In this document: positions 4,217-15,038 of the stretch, piece by piece
Position numbering within the stretch: position 1 is the first letter of the stretch
How the letters are laid out: each line of letters starts with the position of its first letter
Assembly: GCF_017357525.1 (NCBI RefSeq)
Contig: NZ_CP036172.1
Coordinates: forward strand, 558,001 to 622,000
Direction: 5' to 3'
DNA length: 64,000 nt
DNA from: Methanofollis aquaemaris
Lineage (GTDB): Archaea; Halobacteriota; Methanomicrobia; Methanomicrobiales; Methanofollaceae
The notes under the pieces: model-generated
The model's database searches: none
What the model saw: the letters and a program-made list of their open reading frames with translations, nothing else
What the model was told of the DNA's origin: nothing
Made by a program: the position numbers and the translations under genes

Positions 4217-4242
4217 CACCAATATATCTATTGCATGTTGGA

Positions 4243-5325
4243 ATGGATACTAAATCAGATTCAATCGCACTCTTCATCGATTTTGACAATATCGAGATCG
4301 GGATAAAGAGAGGATATAATCGGAGTTTCTCAATCGGACCGGTTATCAAAGAACTCTCTGAGATGGGCACCGTCGTTGTCAGGAGAGCGTACGGCGACTG
4401 GGTATCTTACCAGGCCTATCGGGAAGGCCTGATCGAACACGGGATCGAACTGATCGAACGAACAGCCATCACAAACAGCGGGAAAAACGGCGCGGACATT
4501 AAAATCGCCATTGACGCCGTCGACCTGGCACTGAAGAACGACTTCATCGACACCTTTGCAATCGTATCCGGAGACAGCGATTTTCTCCCGCTCATCCAGA
4601 AGTTGAGAGAATATGGGAAGTATGTGACGGTGATCAGCGGGGATGGTTTCACCAGTCCGTTTATTATGAAAAATTGCGACAAGTTCATCTCATATGAGAC
4701 GATCGCCGGGATCGAAAAACCCCATGAAGAGAAGAAGAAGTTGAAAGATGCGATCGAACTGCTCGAAAAGGTCATACTCTCCAGGGTCGACGAAGGAAGA
4801 GGACTGCACCTGGCCGCGATCAAAAACCAGATGCTCAGACTCGACCCTTCATTCAACGAAAAGTCCTATGGTTTTTCCAATTTTGGAAAATTTATCAGGT
4901 ACATCGGCGACGAGTGTCTTCTCCCGATAAAAATCCACACCAGGGACAGCGGGGACTGGTACCTCGACTACTTCTCCGACGACGACGAGATGATCACCTC
5001 AGAAGAATACCAGCAGCGGGAACCAAATCTCCGGGAGTGGGGGATCATTTTTGGGACCATTGAACGGTGTTTCCGCGAGGGCGAGGGCAAGTATACCCAG
5101 GGGTGGTATCAGTACCTGATCGCATACCTGACGCAGCAGAGACGGGAGGGAAAGATCGGTCTGGACCAGAACAGTCTGCGGGCGGCACTGCACCGTCTCC
5201 TTGACTATGGCATATTGCTCCAGAAAAATCCGGAGAAGAGCCTTGAGAAATCGGTGTTTCAGTTGTCCGGAACCTATGCGGAAAAAAAAGCCACATTCAT
5301 GGACGAACGGTATCGCGGCCTCTGA
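4243..5325 (+). CDS. NYN-domain (LabA/PIN-like) putative RNase with LOTUS/OST-HTH domain
   Basis: 360 aa. Residues 5-155 form a NYN (PIN-fold) nuclease domain with conserved acidic clusters: FIDFDN, NGADIKIAID and SGDSDFLPLI. Residues about 175-255 fit an OST-HTH/LOTUS RNA-binding winged helix (LHLAAIKNQMLRLDPSFNE, then YGFSNFGKFI). The last ~90 residues are helical, perhaps a second winged helix. The family (LabA, MARF1-like proteins) pairs a metal-dependent RNase with RNA recognition, so a cytosolic role in RNA turnover is likely; targets are unknown. It stands alone, flanked by repeat DNA. Moderately AT-rich coding compared with neighbours. Confidence 0.8.
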   Translation: MDTKSDSIALFIDFDNIEIGIKRGYNRSFSIGPVIKELSEMGTVVVRRAYGDWVSYQAYREGLIEHGIELIERTAITNSGKNGADIKIAIDAVDLALKNDFIDTFAIVSGDSDFLPLIQKLREYGKYVTVISGDGFTSPFIMKNCDKFISYETIAGIEKPHEEKKKLKDAIELLEKVILSRVDEGRGLHLAAIKNQMLRLDPSFNEKSYGFSNFGKFIRYIGDECLLPIKIHTRDSGDWYLDYFSDDDEMITSEEYQQREPNLREWGIIFGTIERCFREGEGKYTQGWYQYLIAYLTQQRREGKIGLDQNSLRAALHRLLDYGILLQKNPEKSLEKSVFQLSGTYAEKKATFMDERYRGL

Positions 5326-8269: not shown

Positions 8270-8400
8270 GGAGCGTGAGTCAACTACCCCGCCCTGAAGG
8301 ACGGGGCTTGAGACTCTATCGTGTCGATAGTTCTCGTGTGGGTGGTTGACTGCACCCCTGCACCTCCAAGGTATACCTGTAGGTGCGTGCTCTGGACTCA
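8270..8400 (-). ncRNA. Putative omega RNA (guide-RNA scaffold) of the tnpB element
   Basis: In characterised TnpB systems the guide scaffold overlaps the 3' end of tnpB and the right end of the element. Here the tnpB stop codon lies inside a hairpin (ctatcg/cgatag, 8316-8330), and a second strong hairpin follows at 8287-8306. The structured region is seen directly; its function as a guide RNA is inferred from the family. The guide would read into sequence below about 8280. Confidence 0.4.
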
Positions 8401-9559
8401 ATGTTCCGAGCCCCGATCAGGTCGGCATGAAGCGAGTGTCCACAACATTCGCAGACAAACGATTTCCTGTGCCTGTTGTTCTTGCTGATATGATTGCATC
8501 GAGGACAGGTCTGAGAGGTATAGGCCGGATCGACGTGAACCGTTGATATGCCTTTTTCCCCTGCTTTGTACTCGATAAAGGACTGAAGTTCAAAGAACGC
8601 CCAGGAGTGATGTGTATATCTCTGCTTCTTCGAGGTTTCTGTCCGATCCCTGATCCCGGAAAGATCCTCCAGTCCAATCACATCAACATTGTTCTGAACA
8701 GCAAACTCAACAATCTCCTTAGAAACACGGTGGTTCATATCAGTCATAAGCCGTCTCTCCCGGCCAGAGAGGTGGTTCAGCATCCTCTTTGCCGACCGGG
8801 TGCCCTTCGACTGCAACCGTTTCCGCATGTTAGAATAGATGTTTCGGAGATCCTTGGCTTTCCCGCCACAGAAAAACCGACACTTTTTGTCGGTTGTCGA
8901 GGCAACCGCAAGGAAGGTCTGGCCCACATCAACCCCCATGAAAGTCGATGACTCCATAACCTCACGGGTCTTGGTCTCCCTCTCACAACAGAGGTGGAAG
9001 TAATACGTCCCGTCCTGGTGTTTCACCAACTTTGAAGCTCCAAACTTCCACGATCCGTCGAGATATTGCTCCATGTGAGAATACCGGAAGAAATGATACT
9101 TTCTTCGGCCTTCGAGGGTGGTAAGCCCGATCTCGTCTCTGTCGAGAGTGAAGTCCCGTCCGAAGGAGAAGGTCATCGTGCTGGGGGTGTATGTGATCTG
9201 CTGCCACGTGGTCTTCTTTGCCTTGATCTGCTTCTGGAGTGTCTGGTAGGTTCCCGTGACCTGTCGGACGACGTTGCAGGACATCTGGGACTTGAGACCA
9301 ATCTGTTCCCGGAGGGTCGGGTAGACGATCTTCTGGAGGGCAGCAGAACCCCTGGGTTTCCCGAGTTTGTACACGACCGCAGAGACGTAATTCATCCCCT
9401 CGGTGTAGGCCTGTACCGTCCGGTCAAGGAGATCGGTATCAGGACAGTCCATCTTGAGGATGACAGTCTTTGTGGTGAGCACATAGGCCTATTTCACTCA
9501 AAAGTATTAGGGTTATGTGCGTGAACTGCAAGTCCTCCACGGCCTGAAGACCGGGGACT
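8273..9559 (-). mobile_element. Stand-alone tnpB element (IS200/IS605 superfamily, IS1341-like)
   Basis: The element carries only tnpB; no Y1 transposase (tnpA) is nearby. On the 3' side of tnpB is a hairpin at 8287-8306 (CCCCGTCC, loop TTCA, GGGCGGGG) followed by TAGTTGAC, a right-end form common in archaeal IS605-type elements. On the 5' side, 9531-9559 (AGTCC...GGACT) forms a similar hairpin with the shared CCTGAAGACCGGGG core in the same orientation, as expected for a left end. Exact boundaries are estimates; mobilisation would need TnpA from elsewhere. Confidence 0.65.
8316..9482 (-). CDS. tnpB: RNA-guided endonuclease TnpB
   Basis: 388 aa, full length for TnpB. The RuvC catalytic acids look intact: D185 (GVDVGQ), E272 (IGLEDLSG) and D354 (HADLIGARN). 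The zinc ribbon between the second and third motifs is present (CPRC 326-329, CECC 344-347). The N-terminal OrfB helix-turn-helix/WED-like region precedes it. TnpB uses an RNA from its own right end to cut matching DNA next to a short motif, which helps its element persist. No frameshift is seen, so the enzyme may be active. Confidence 0.92.
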   Translation of the reverse strand: MLTTKTVILKMDCPDTDLLDRTVQAYTEGMNYVSAVVYKLGKPRGSAALQKIVYPTLREQIGLKSQMSCNVVRQVTGTYQTLQKQIKAKKTTWQQITYTPSTMTFSFGRDFTLDRDEIGLTTLEGRRKYHFFRYSHMEQYLDGSWKFGASKLVKHQDGTYYFHLCCERETKTREVMESSTFMGVDVGQTFLAVASTTDKKCRFFCGGKAKDLRNIYSNMRKRLQSKGTRSAKRMLNHLSGRERRLMTDMNHRVSKEIVEFAVQNNVDVIGLEDLSGIRDRTETSKKQRYTHHSWAFFELQSFIEYKAGEKGISTVHVDPAYTSQTCPRCNHISKNNRHRKSFVCECCGHSLHADLIGARNIESRARTYRYTLEVQGCSQPPTRELSTR

Positions 9560-9621: not shown

Positions 9622-10644
9622 TTAGATCAATCCGCGGCACGCGAGGAAGTAGGCCATCAGGGTTTCGAGCCCCCAGATGTACTCGGCGGCATCGACCGAT
9701 CGGATCTGCCTGCCGATCTCTCGCACGCGCCGGTGGTCCTCCTCCCACTCCTCCATAAGGCGTTCCTCCACTTTCGCCTCCCTGAGATAGGAGAGGAAGG
9801 CTGCATCGTCACCCGAGGCACGGTGAGCAGCGATGTCGGCGGGCGTGATGAGTCCATAGGCCAGCGCCCAGCTCATCACCCCGGAGGAGTAGTCGCCCTC
9901 CTCGACCTCCCGCTCCCAGGTGCCGACCCAGTTTCCGATCCTGACCATCTGTTGGCCGTACCAGACCAGTTCCCGGAGATGAGGGAGGTCTTCCTGCCTG
10001 AGGGCGGGTGAGTACAGGGCGTCCACGGTCCCACAGATGTAGATGGTCATGTTGTGCGAGTTGTAGGAGAGGTTCTCGGCATGGCTGATCGCCTCGGGGT
10101 GCCGGTTGATGAGGTAGGCATACCAGAACGAGTTCCAGGTCTGGGCAAGGTCGAAGAAGAAGAGGTCGCCGAACTCGGCCCAGCGCGGGGCCGCTTCCAC
10201 CCGGGCGTAGATTTCATCAAAGAGGGTGGCGAGGTAACGGACCCGGTGCGCCTCTTCGGGCGTCAGGTCTGTTGGTATCTCCAGATCGTCGCGCCTGAAC
10301 GGAACCTGGAGCATCACCTCAAGCAACCGCCGGTTCTGGTGTCGGTCGGAGACGTCGTCGGTCACGGTGGTGGCCAGGATGATGAAGAGTTTGACCAGCG
10401 CCGCGTCCCTGCGGCATGCCGGCGGGACCGAGGAGAAGCCGAATGCCGGATCCTGATCGTACAGGATCTTCCAGCACCACTGCCAGAGGAACCGGTTCCT
10501 CTCCCCAAAATGTTCCTCATATTCGGGGAGGACGGCCACAAACTCTTCCGGAAGTCCGACCGCTGCGATCCCCTCTCTCAACAAGCCTTTTTCGGTGTCT
10601 GCATAGGTGCAGACCGCACTGATCACTGTTTCGTTATCGAGCAT
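9622..10644 (-). CDS. Putative class I terpene synthase-fold protein
   Basis: 340 aa, the normal length for a microbial class I terpene cyclase. An Asp-rich motif DDVSD (96-100) sits after a hydrophobic helix. About 140 residues later comes NWVGTWERE (238-246), which fits the N-x3-S/T-x3-E (NSE/DTE) Mg2+ site, followed by EEGDYSSGV as in known cyclases. Between them are long aromatic helices. Such enzymes ionise prenyl diphosphates to make cyclic terpenes in the cytosol. The start at 10644 is supported by AGGAGATG just upstream. Product unknown; a prenyl-binding protein without cyclase activity is an alternative. Motif spacing is read directly, function is inference. Confidence 0.6.
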   Translation of the reverse strand: MLDNETVISAVCTYADTEKGLLREGIAAVGLPEEFVAVLPEYEEHFGERNRFLWQWCWKILYDQDPAFGFSSVPPACRRDAALVKLFIILATTVTDDVSDRHQNRRLLEVMLQVPFRRDDLEIPTDLTPEEAHRVRYLATLFDEIYARVEAAPRWAEFGDLFFFDLAQTWNSFWYAYLINRHPEAISHAENLSYNSHNMTIYICGTVDALYSPALRQEDLPHLRELVWYGQQMVRIGNWVGTWEREVEEGDYSSGVMSWALAYGLITPADIAAHRASGDDAAFLSYLREAKVEERLMEEWEEDHRRVREIGRQIRSVDAAEYIWGLETLMAYFLACRGLI

Positions 10645-10773
10645 CTCAGCATCTCCTGAAAAGACCGGGCCGGAAGAGAGGACTGGGGGGTCAGGACCAT
10701 CGGGGCCTGGCCGGACACTTCGGTGTGCTGGCGGGGGGTTCAGGCACCCGGTCTGGATCCTGATCGGGCCATC

Positions 10774-10797
10774 AAAGATATAAATATATTTATCAAA
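10774..10797 (-). promoter_or_regulatory. TATA-rich palindromic promoter upstream of the terpene synthase-like gene
   Basis: AAGATATAAATATATTTATC contains the perfect 14-bp palindrome ATAAATATATTTAT (10780-10793). It is the only AT-rich block in this spacer and would serve the leftward gene, leaving a leader of roughly 110 bases. A regulator could compete at the palindrome. Confidence 0.4.
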
Positions 10798-10828: not shown

Positions 10829-11581
10829 TTATACGTGACCGCAAATACCGTGATTTCCATGAAGAAGACAGGAACACTTCACGGCCTTCACCGCCCGGGA
10901 AACGGTGTGCACTGCGGGATCGGTGGCCATGAAATGGACGGTCCCTTTCTTGAGGTGAGCGAGGAGATCTTCTGGTCCCTCGAAGGGTTCGAGTTCAACA
11001 AAGGTGCGGCAGAGTTCGAAGGGGAGGTGGGCATCCGAACCGACCGAGAGCATTTTTTTGTGGGTCCGGCCGTACGCCTGGGCCGCACGATTCGCCTCCG
11101 GCGAGATGTTCCTGGCATTGTAGCCCTCGATGATGTCGACCCGACCGATGATCTCTTCAAGGGCGCGCCTCTCGATGGCGCTTGACCTGAAGGCGCAGAA
11201 GGGGTGGGGGACGATCGAGATGGCACCCTGCGCCCGGATCAGGTCGACGGTCTCGGCGGCGGGGAGGCCCGGTGGGATCTCCTCGGTGAGGAAGGCGCCG
11301 ATCACCTCCCCTTCGGCCGTCGAGATCTCCTCGGCGCGGATGAAGGGTACGTCGGGGTCGGTCTCCCTGATCCGGCGGTAGACCTCTTCGGAGCCGCGGA
11401 CGGTGTCGTGGTCGCAGACCAGTGCCAGAACCCGGTGCGTCTGCCATGCCCGGACGACGGCATCCGCCCCTACCACGGCGTCGGGCGAGTGGGAGGTGTG
11501 GACATGCATGTCAAGCCCGATGCACTCACTGTCTGTGTCAGTCGTCTGAAAGCGATCAGCGGGTGTGGTCCTCGATGACAT
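10829..11581 (-). CDS. PHP-domain metal-dependent phosphoesterase
   Basis: 250 aa. The PHP signature starts at MHVHTSHSPDA (His26, His28); VCDHDTVRG, HPFCAF and VGSDAH complete the metal ligands. PHP proteins without a polymerase act as phosphoesterases on nucleotides or sugar phosphates. The start at 11581 is preferred: a TATA-like CTATACTT lies 24-31 bases upstream and the longer frame begins inside the divergent neighbour. It is same-strand with, and upstream of, the terpene synthase-like gene, though a promoter-like block sits between them. Family confident, substrate unknown. Confidence 0.85.
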   Translation of the reverse strand: MSSRTTPADRFQTTDTDSECIGLDMHVHTSHSPDAVVGADAVVRAWQTHRVLALVCDHDTVRGSEEVYRRIRETDPDVPFIRAEEISTAEGEVIGAFLTEEIPPGLPAAETVDLIRAQGAISIVPHPFCAFRSSAIERRALEEIIGRVDIIEGYNARNISPEANRAAQAYGRTHKKMLSVGSDAHLPFELCRTFVELEPFEGPEDLLAHLKKGTVHFMATDPAVHTVSRAVKAVKCSCLLHGNHGICGHV

Positions 11582-11710
11582 GAATATAGATTGTTGGCCC
11601 GGAAGTATAGAGATGCTCCACTTAGTTTCCGGAGCACCCAATAAAATATAGAGGAGGTGGCCGCGTTCGACCGCCATCCGTATATGCCAGGAACGGCAGG
11701 AACATCCCAT

Positions 11711-12781
11711 ATGGATATGATCCGGATCCTGGGTGCAGGCCCGGCCGGGCTCTCGGCGGCCGTCACCCTGGCGAAGGCGGGGTACAATGTGGAGGTGTAC
11801 GAAAAACGGGAGGACGCCGGGATGCGCTTCAAGGGCGATCTCCAGGGCCTGGAAAACTGGTCGGATCCCACCGACGTCATCGAGCGCCTCGAAATGATCG
11901 GGATCAGGCCCGCGTTCGAGCACCGCCCCTACCCCTGTCTCTCAGTCTCCGACGGTCAGGAAGTGCTCCCCTTTGCCTGTCAGAAACCTGCCTTCTATCT
12001 GGTCAGGCGGGGGAGCGAACCCGGCAGTCTTGACCATGCCCTCAAAGAGCAGGCCCACGATGCCGGGGCCGAGATCAGGTTCAATGAGACCCTCCCGGAG
12101 GAGAAAGCCGACATCGTGGCCACCGGTCCCGACAGGCGGGGGGTGCATGCCGTCGCAAAGGGCTACACCTTCTCGACCTCGATGGACGACCTTGCCTACG
12201 GGCTTGTCAATACCGCCGCCTCCAGAAACGGGTATGCCTACCTCCTGGTGATGAACGGCCGCGGCTGCCTCTGCACGATGCTGACCAGGTGCTTCGATGA
12301 GGCGGGGGCCTGCCTGGCAGAGGCCGAGCAGACCTTCTCCAGACTTGTCGACCTGGAGGTGCGGGATCCAGAACCCTGCGGTGGGGTGGGGAGGTTTGTC
12401 CTGCCGCCGCACTTCCAGGATCAGGGAAGACGGTACGCCGGGGAGGCTGCCGGCCTCCAGGACCCCTTCTGGGGTTTTGGGATCCTGTACGCCCTCAGGT
12501 CCGGCCACCTCGCCGCGCAGAGTATCATCAAGGACCTCGACTACGGCCACGCCGCAGAGGAGGCCTTCGGCGATCTGCTGAAGGCGGGGGTGGTCAACCG
12601 CTACCTCTGGGACCGGTATGGTCCGGAGAATTATGCCGGGATCTACCGGAGGCTCAGGGGAGTGACAGACCCGCTGCCGTACCTCCGTTCATTCTACACC
12701 TTCAACACCTACCAGAGGTTGCTGTATCGCAAGGCAAGACGGCACATGAAGGAGCGGTACGGGACAGTGCCGGCGGCATGA
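11711..12781 (+). CDS. FAD-dependent oxidoreductase of the geranylgeranyl-reductase family
   Basis: 356 aa. The N-terminal dinucleotide-binding motif ILGAGPAGLSAA binds FAD. Near residue 190 NGYAYLLVMNGRG occupies the place of the family's substrate-contact motif (GYGWVFPKG type) but has lost its Trp-x-Phe-Pro. The C-terminal GEAAGLQDPFWGFGI matches the FAD motif GDAAG...GGGI in altered form. Family members saturate prenyl chains of membrane lipids or quinones. The divergence makes another isoprenoid or unrelated substrate possible. Start 11711 is chosen because gtatatgcc lies about 22 bases upstream (leaderless). Divergent from the PHP gene with a shared 129-bp promoter region. Confidence 0.72.
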   Translation: MDMIRILGAGPAGLSAAVTLAKAGYNVEVYEKREDAGMRFKGDLQGLENWSDPTDVIERLEMIGIRPAFEHRPYPCLSVSDGQEVLPFACQKPAFYLVRRGSEPGSLDHALKEQAHDAGAEIRFNETLPEEKADIVATGPDRRGVHAVAKGYTFSTSMDDLAYGLVNTAASRNGYAYLLVMNGRGCLCTMLTRCFDEAGACLAEAEQTFSRLVDLEVRDPEPCGGVGRFVLPPHFQDQGRRYAGEAAGLQDPFWGFGILYALRSGHLAAQSIIKDLDYGHAAEEAFGDLLKAGVVNRYLWDRYGPENYAGIYRRLRGVTDPLPYLRSFYTFNTYQRLLYRKARRHMKERYGTVPAA

Positions 12782-14000: not shown

Positions 14001-15038
14001 TTAACTCTGGACATCGGCACCTGCCGGTGCGTACGCCGGGTAGGTCTGGATATTGCGGATGTTTGCCTGAGTCATGTTGTCGACGGTCTGCGGGTAGGAG
14101 ATGCCCTGTGCAATCCCCTCGCCCCATGGTGCGATGGTGATGCAGCGGAACGCGAGACCTTCGTTCACCATGTCAGGAATGATCGGCTCTGCAGACTGGT
14201 AGTGGATGATGATCGGCTCGACGGCGGGCTCAGGCTCGATGACGATCGGTTCCGGTTCGATAGTGACATTCTCGTCGACGGTCACATTTTCATCAACGGT
14301 GACGTTTTCATCGACCGTCACATTCTCGTCAACGGTGATATTTTCATCGACGGTCACGTTTTCATCGACGGTCACATTCTCACCATCGGTCATGTTCTCA
14401 TCGCCGGTGACATTTTCACCATCAGTGATGTTCTCATCGACGGTCGCGTTCTCACCATTGGTCATGTTCTCATCCATCTGAGCCATGAAAACACCCGAGT
14501 AATTCATTAAAGTCTCATCGGTGACATTCTCCATGGTCTCGTTGGTCACGTTGATGTTGTAGTCACCATAGACGAAGAGCGCACCCGCAGGCACGACCTT
14601 CCCTTCCTCGCCTCCCCAGGTACCATAGAGTGTCGTCTCGTTCTCGATCGTCACCATGAATCCGCCGTCACGCAGCACCCACCCCTCCATCGGGACATCC
14701 ATGCCGGTGATATAGTAGACCCTGTACTCATTCCTCGGGTCGACACCGAATGCGACCGGTTCAGGGACTGTGGTGAAGTTCATGCCGAAGGTCTCCTCAA
14801 AGTAGGCCGTCGCCTCGTCTCTGGTCGTGTTGATCTCCTCGTCTGTGCGGCCCATGATATCCTTGTGGAACCACATCGCAAGATCGCCTTCCTCGGGCGG
14901 GACAGACGGGTCATACTGCCCGGTTGCCATCGCGACGACGACTTTAAAGTCGTCCTCTTCGACAGCAGTGACGGCACCCACCCCGAGGACCGCGATGGCC
15001 ACCAGAACAAGTGACGCCACAAGTGTTTTTCGCATCAT
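14001..15038 (-). CDS. Secreted protein with a tandem array of N-glycosylation sequons
   Basis: 345 aa. Residues 1-26 are a classic signal peptide ending around VTAVEE. A folded domain (about 27-165) follows. Residues ~190-262 are a six-residue repeat of the type NVTVDE, and a C-terminal domain after a PEP-rich linker ends the protein. I count 20 N-x-S/T sequons, 12 of them in the repeat array. Archaeal AglB glycosylates such sites, so the array should form a rigid, acidic, heavily glycosylated rod, as in surface-layer or adhesion proteins. No C-terminal anchor is seen. Family not recognised. Confidence 0.75.
   Translation of the reverse strand: MMRKTLVASLVLVAIAVLGVGAVTAVEEDDFKVVVAMATGQYDPSVPPEEGDLAMWFHKDIMGRTDEEINTTRDEATAYFEETFGMNFTTVPEPVAFGVDPRNEYRVYYITGMDVPMEGWVLRDGGFMVTIENETTLYGTWGGEEGKVVPAGALFVYGDYNINVTNETMENVTDETLMNYSGVFMAQMDENMTNGENATVDENITDGENVTGDENMTDGENVTVDENVTVDENITVDENVTVDENVTVDENVTVDENVTIEPEPIVIEPEPAVEPIIIHYQSAEPIIPDMVNEGLAFRCITIAPWGEGIAQGISYPQTVDNMTQANIRNIQTYPAYAPAGADVQS
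14263..14478 (-). repeat. Twelve in-frame 18-bp tandem repeats encoding sequons
   Basis: Exactly twelve 18-base units (first gtgacattctcgtcgacg, last at 14461) lie in register with the reading frame. Units differ mostly at third positions and at the GD/NG/VD variants, so selection keeps the peptide pattern. Length variation between strains by slippage or recombination is expected. Confidence 0.9.

Follow-up and report, generated by a model that had tools for sequence, protein, structure and literature searches.

The locus and its surroundings

The window analysed here is a stretch of 64,000 nucleotides from the genome of Methanofollis aquaemaris, on a single contig of 2.75 Mb (NZ_CP036172.1). 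Its minus strand carries, at positions 9622..10644, the coding sequence of a class I terpene synthase-like protein of 340 aa (P0001), extending from an ATG at 10642-10644 to a stop at 9622-9624. Translation of the minus strand over this interval gives a single uninterrupted protein, and the plus strand of the same interval is interrupted by a stop; the 340-aa frame reported in a preliminary description of this DNA is retained, with its strand corrected to minus. A Shine-Dalgarno-like GGAGATG is found at 10650..10656 (minus strand), 5 nt 5' of the ATG, and a TATA-like AT-rich box, AAATATATTTATA, at 10779..10791 (minus strand), 134 nt 5' of it. Conservation of the start region extends over four Methanofollis species, in which the position of the TATA-like box is also constant, and this conservation suggests that P0001 has its own promoter. 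A longer open frame of 412 aa was considered and rejected, as its upstream part is unconserved and the ribosome site belongs to the 340-aa start. P0001 is shown to be a real and intact gene under selection, the dN/dS of the synthase being 0.04-0.09 among the Methanofollis species of the first of two lineages described below (93-94% identity).

Upstream of P0001, an open frame at 10829..11923 on the minus strand, whose true start is probably near 11570, encodes a PHP/CehA-like metal-dependent phosphoesterase whose close orthologues are confined to the four species with the first synthase lineage. Divergent from it is a gene at 11657..12781 on the plus strand (true start probably at 11717), encoding a FAD enzyme that resembles geranylgeranyl reductases, a group known to saturate prenyl chains and to be multiplied in archaea (PMC10821996). 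This gene is adjacent in the same four species and is also present, in a different neighbourhood, in three Methanofollis genomes devoid of the synthase; a terpenoid cluster comprising the synthase and the reductase-like gene was for this reason discarded as not specific. The second Methanofollis lineage of the synthase is accompanied by genes for a GNAT acetyltransferase, a uracil phosphoribosyltransferase and a xanthine/uracil permease. Neither a P450 nor any other obvious tailoring cluster was found within the window, and no sensory or regulatory neighbours (kinase or bacterio-opsin activator type) of the Methanofollis gene were seen. From these neighbourhoods, no pathway is visible in Methanofollis.

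Other features of the window include an IS200/IS605-type TnpB-like gene at 8316-9482 on the minus strand, directly downstream of the synthase, with a C-terminal zinc finger recognised by eye; it is probably a recent insertion, because it is absent at the same place in two relatives (G087 and G090). A plus-strand frame at 4231-5325 fuses a NYN nuclease domain to an OST-HTH/LOTUS domain, and the minus-strand gene at 14001-15038 encodes a protein that looks secreted and contains VDENVT-type repeats in a row.

The host had been described as a methanogen from the sequence of the window, and the presence of two mcrA genes in the source genome bears this out. The genome contains one recognised gene for a trans-prenyl diphosphate synthase (PF00348), located elsewhere than P0001. 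Prenyl diphosphates are abundant in archaea for membrane lipids, and the archaeal ether lipids require GGPP. Given this requirement and the single PF00348 gene, GGPP is most likely the substrate, from which a C20 terpene would be expected, FPP being a possible alternative.

Metal motifs and active-site residues

Two metal motifs are recognised in P0001, and their coordinates were computed from the residue numbers. The Asp-rich motif DDVSD occupies residues 96-100 (10345..10359, minus strand), and the NSE-type motif NWVGTWERE residues 238-246 (9907..9933, minus strand), with GDYSSGV at residues 250-256; for all three, the residue positions given in the preliminary description agree with the translation. 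The motif pair occurs in one of the 377 open frames of at least 80 aa in the window, and it was found in 6/882 control frames of at least 200 aa and in 46/20000 shuffles. With a chance rate of roughly 0.2-0.7% of frames, the pair by itself is weak evidence, and it is its conservation that makes it compelling. D97, N238, T242 and E246 are invariant in 19 homologues spanning 26-94% identity, and D96 is kept in over 90% of them, being replaced by N in one. Both motifs persist down to 20-30% identity, including the Methanosarcina homologues (~20%), so that the conservation of DDxxD and NSE, which had been proposed as a check among close homologues, holds in close and distant ones alike.

Further positions are invariant in the alignment (19/19), among them M199, D208, R224, R235, I236, W243, R245, D251 and G255. 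R235, in the sequence RIGN, precedes the NSE-type motif by three residues, counted from its Asn, and R245 lies inside the motif just before the Glu. Plant synthases carry an R-x2-N/D element at this place, and on the basis of these and of bacterial enzymes R235 and R245 are likely candidate diphosphate ligands. In the bacterial class I synthases, a diphosphate-sensor Arg, part of the effector triad, is situated some 46 residues N-terminal to the Asn of the NSE motif. With the sensor position taken from this background, the alignment of 19 homologues contains no invariant Arg in residues 180-220, the nearest invariant residues being M199 and D208, and R235 and R245 could act as stand-ins for the sensor Arg. 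An invariant R-Y pair was likewise sought in the C-terminal columns of the 19 homologues and none was found; such a pair is a bacterial-only trait, which is not defining for the plant class I synthases.

Profile and fold evidence

The only Pfam family matched by P0001 at E<=1 is PF19086 (24.4 bits, E 2.8e-5), a model with which a profile search had been suggested, over residues 90-259 and with both metal motifs in register. The gathering cut-off of 23.7 bits is passed by a marginal 0.7 bits, and 16 of the 19 family members match the same profile at E<=0.01, the best at 3.9e-8. A search of the NCBIfam models with P0001 gave no match, and sequence searches of the PDB, with P0001 alone and with the 19-row profile, returned nothing significant.

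The AlphaFold model of P0001, built with the 19-sequence alignment, is all helical and predicted with a pLDDT of 92.5 and a pTM of 0.92; the fold predicted is that of the class I terpenoid synthases, on which the preliminary description had made its reading depend. Foldseek comparison of the model with the PDB gave 16 matches at E<=0.001, 12 of which are terpene synthases, including Sat1646 diterpene synthase, tolypothrichol synthase, T-muurolol synthase, hydropyrene synthase (TM up to 0.60/0.66) and the plant 5-epi-aristolochene synthase; the other four are prenyl/isoprenoid synthases of the same superfamily. The model resembles these structures moderately (TM 0.5-0.66, most rmsd values being 5-10 Å), with a Foldseek probability of 1.00 to terpene synthases. 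That both metal motifs would face a single cavity is supported by this match of the whole fold. When a Methanosarcina homologue was modelled from a separate alignment, its matches were once more class I terpene synthases, chiefly epi-isozizaene synthase and hydropyrene synthase. No match at E<=0.001 was obtained in a viral fold library. Taken with the conserved motifs, the PF19086 match and the predicted fold support the earlier reading of P0001 as a putative class I terpene synthase.

Distribution and phylogeny

Within the order, the gene is carried by 7 of 232 genomes, all of them Methanofollis (7/12 species), in two lineages: the first, at 93-94% identity, comprises four genomes including the source genome, and the second, at 41-43% identity, is found at a different genome location. 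In haloarchaea a profile of 19 members recovered the family in 120 of 392 sampled genomes (~31%), representing 39/86 genera, so the view that these enzymes are rare in archaea was not borne out; all six homologues on annotated haloarchaeal plasmids are named 'hypothetical protein'. Elsewhere in the phylum, the profile found copies in further genomes, among them two genomes of genus g57 and several large genomes of genera g87 and g98, which belong to the same taxonomic family (f8) as g57. The copy in G536, a genome that we take to be Methanosarcina acetivorans C2A, has ~20% identity to P0001 and keeps DDSCD and N-x3-T-x3-E. In the tree, g57, an archaeal MAG (L010) and both Methanofollis lineages group apart from haloarchaea with a support of 100/100, the order in which L010 and the two Methanofollis lineages branch being weakly supported (80/39). 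Four loci of another family, f9 (L110-L113, genera g66/g79), hold fragmentary or broken synthase copies that contain in-frame stops or have lost the motifs, which suggests gene decay in that lineage or poor assembly.

Neighbourhood of the gene in other archaea

An unexpected association emerged when the 119 open frames lying up to two genes away from 30 haloarchaeal copies were compared with 120 frames around control positions of the same genomes. The synthase neighbours include PAS (8), HalOD1 (6), BAT (5), GAF (5) and histidine-kinase ATPase (3) domains, and the control frames PAS_4 (2), HTH_10 (3), BAT (2) and GAF (2), with HalOD1 and the kinase ATPase not among the 25 families listed for the control. 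Sensory genes are enriched approximately 2-4 fold over control loci, which is not decisive, since the copies are related and the comparison covers the top families only. The independent annotation of plasmid records is in agreement: in four of five, a PAS protein, a PAS kinase, a bacterio-opsin activator or a HalOD1 gene lies within two genes of the synthase. Three Methanosarcina-type genomes have a same-strand PAS-HisKA_2 kinase gene adjoining the synthase gene, and the two g57 genomes have a multi-PAS kinase gene there. Homologues with sensory neighbours of these types (PAS/GAF kinase, bacterio-opsin activator or HalOD1) include, in haloarchaea and Methanosarcinaceae, those at L035, L039, L087, L088, L094, L095, L097, L101, L102, L105, L108, L109, L154, L157 and L158.

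In the haloarchaeal genome G529 (L037:6763-8277), a single frame of 505 aa joins a receiver domain (REC) and HalX to a C-terminal synthase. This is the only true fusion, the N-terminal extensions of several other haloarchaeal copies having been dismissed as chance open frames. On the opposite strand, past the end of the L037 frame, an alpha/beta hydrolase gene and a FAD monooxygenase-like gene are found. A 2018 census of archaeal two-component systems described response regulators with enzymatic outputs, a terpenoid enzyme being unmentioned (PMC5847659). At L010, the start of the synthase and a FIST-domain gene share 4 nt. At L089:2189-4390 in the haloarchaeal genome G664, a synthase paralogue, the second copy of that genome, is followed immediately, on the same strand, by genes for a cytochrome P450 and a SnoaL-like protein. 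P450s are uncommon in archaea, and such a layout is typical of terpenoid clusters. Because the gene is tied in many relatives to regulators of the two-component or bacterio-opsin-activator type, the product of these regulator-linked relatives is probably made conditionally.

Proposed function and alternative explanations

Judged from the sequence and the predicted structure, P0001 is very probably a functional class I terpene synthase made of a single domain. Catalysis, metal geometry, substrate, product and use of the product are here inferred. As in the family at large, Asp96, Asp97 and Asp100 together with Asn238, Thr242 and Glu246 would hold three Mg2+ that bind the diphosphate of the prenyl substrate, and the invariant Arg235 and Arg245 would contact this diphosphate. 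Closure of the helical bundle would then pull the diphosphate off, and the resulting allylic cation would cyclise or be quenched in a hydrophobic pocket.

The same fold is shared by prenyltransferases, and an enzyme of this kind would transfer the cation, once formed, to IPP, to an aromatic compound or to a second prenyl chain as acceptor, with no terpene released. In favour of this reading, prenyl/isoprenoid synthases make up 4 of the 16 top fold matches, and many prenyl transfers take place in archaea; yet the second motif of P0001 is N-x3-T-x3-E and the second DDxxD of chain-elongating enzymes is absent, neither PF00348 nor the squalene/phytoene synthase profile (PF00494) is matched, and terpene synthases account for the remaining 12 of the best fold matches, which renders prenyl transfer unlikely. 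It could also be argued that a protein with the synthase fold now serves sensor kinases by binding to or regulating them, perhaps as a sensor of prenyl diphosphates, and that its catalysis has been lost or is incidental. The frequent adjacency of the gene, in Methanosarcinaceae and haloarchaea, to genes for PAS/GAF kinases and bacterio-opsin activators and to HalOD1 genes, and the one REC-HalX fusion, would suit this role. Against it stand the metal ligands kept family-wide, the strong selection, the Methanofollis gene with none of these neighbours, the P450 neighbour in one case and an enrichment over control loci of only a few fold, and we regard it as very improbable. Mere resemblance, in which an unrelated helical protein happens to carry two short acidic motifs, draws on the chance rate of the motif pair given above, and it is contradicted by the profile match, the family-wide invariance and two separate fold predictions to the point of being hardly credible.

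If P0001 and its relatives are terpene synthases, their product may act in signalling, the sensor kinases, bacterio-opsin-type activators and REC-HalX domains either switching the synthase on or sensing the terpene, and the substrate being ionised without the bacterial sensor Arg. This proposal is tentative and we consider it rather doubtful; were it correct, the terpene made by haloarchaea and methanogens would be produced conditionally, might be volatile, and would serve as a signal or as a modulator of the membrane. That sensory genes recur beside the synthase is a concrete lead to the purpose of the product. As the family is present in Methanofollis, in Methanosarcina and in about one third of the haloarchaeal genomes sampled, archaeal terpene production is directly testable in tractable hosts.

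To our knowledge, the terpenes of class I synthases are practically undescribed in archaea, and no peer-reviewed archaeal class I terpene synthase was found in the literature searched. A preprint by Samusevich et al. (bioRxiv 2024.01.29.577750, cited in PMC12797696) claims in its title that structure-based prediction revealed archaeal terpenoid biosynthesis; as archaeal terpenoid synthesis has already been claimed there, we make no claim to a first in archaea. 'Terpene clusters' have also been reported in Halomicroarcula (PMC8600319), and these are probably carotenoid or squalene genes. What is new here is how widely the family occurs, how its active site seems to differ from the bacterial one, and the sensory genes that are found around it.

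Comparison with known enzymes

The microbial class I enzymes of PF19086 (Terpene_syn_C_2, terpene synthase family 2) share with P0001 a length of about 340 aa, a single all-alpha domain and both metal motifs. Unlike them, the P0001 family has no invariant Arg at the sensor position, and invariant R-I-x-N and T-W-x-R-E surround its second motif. The best structural matches are the bacterial di- and sesquiterpene synthases Sat1646 (7e4n), hydropyrene synthase (8b4l), T-muurolol synthase (9hqm) and tolypothrichol synthase (9kgb), with TM ~0.54-0.66 and a probability of 1.00, although their sequence identity to P0001 is 11-14% and they are missed by sequence search. The plant enzymes 5-epi-aristolochene synthase (5eat) and AtTPS18 (7bzb) share the helix H pattern R-x2-N/D-x3-T-x3-E followed by a G-containing turn, and it is on this helix H stretch that AtTPS18 was aligned as the best PDB profile hit (E = 0.21, not significant); they differ in that P0001 lacks the N-terminal second domain, and the target-normalised TM is low (0.38-0.41). 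With the archaeal trans-prenyl diphosphate synthases (PF00348; A3MSH1, 4dhd), P0001 has in common the superfamily fold and the first DDxxD-type motif, but it carries an NSE motif in place of their second DDxxD. The P0001 family is best described as a branch of the class I terpene synthases that is archaeal and divergent.
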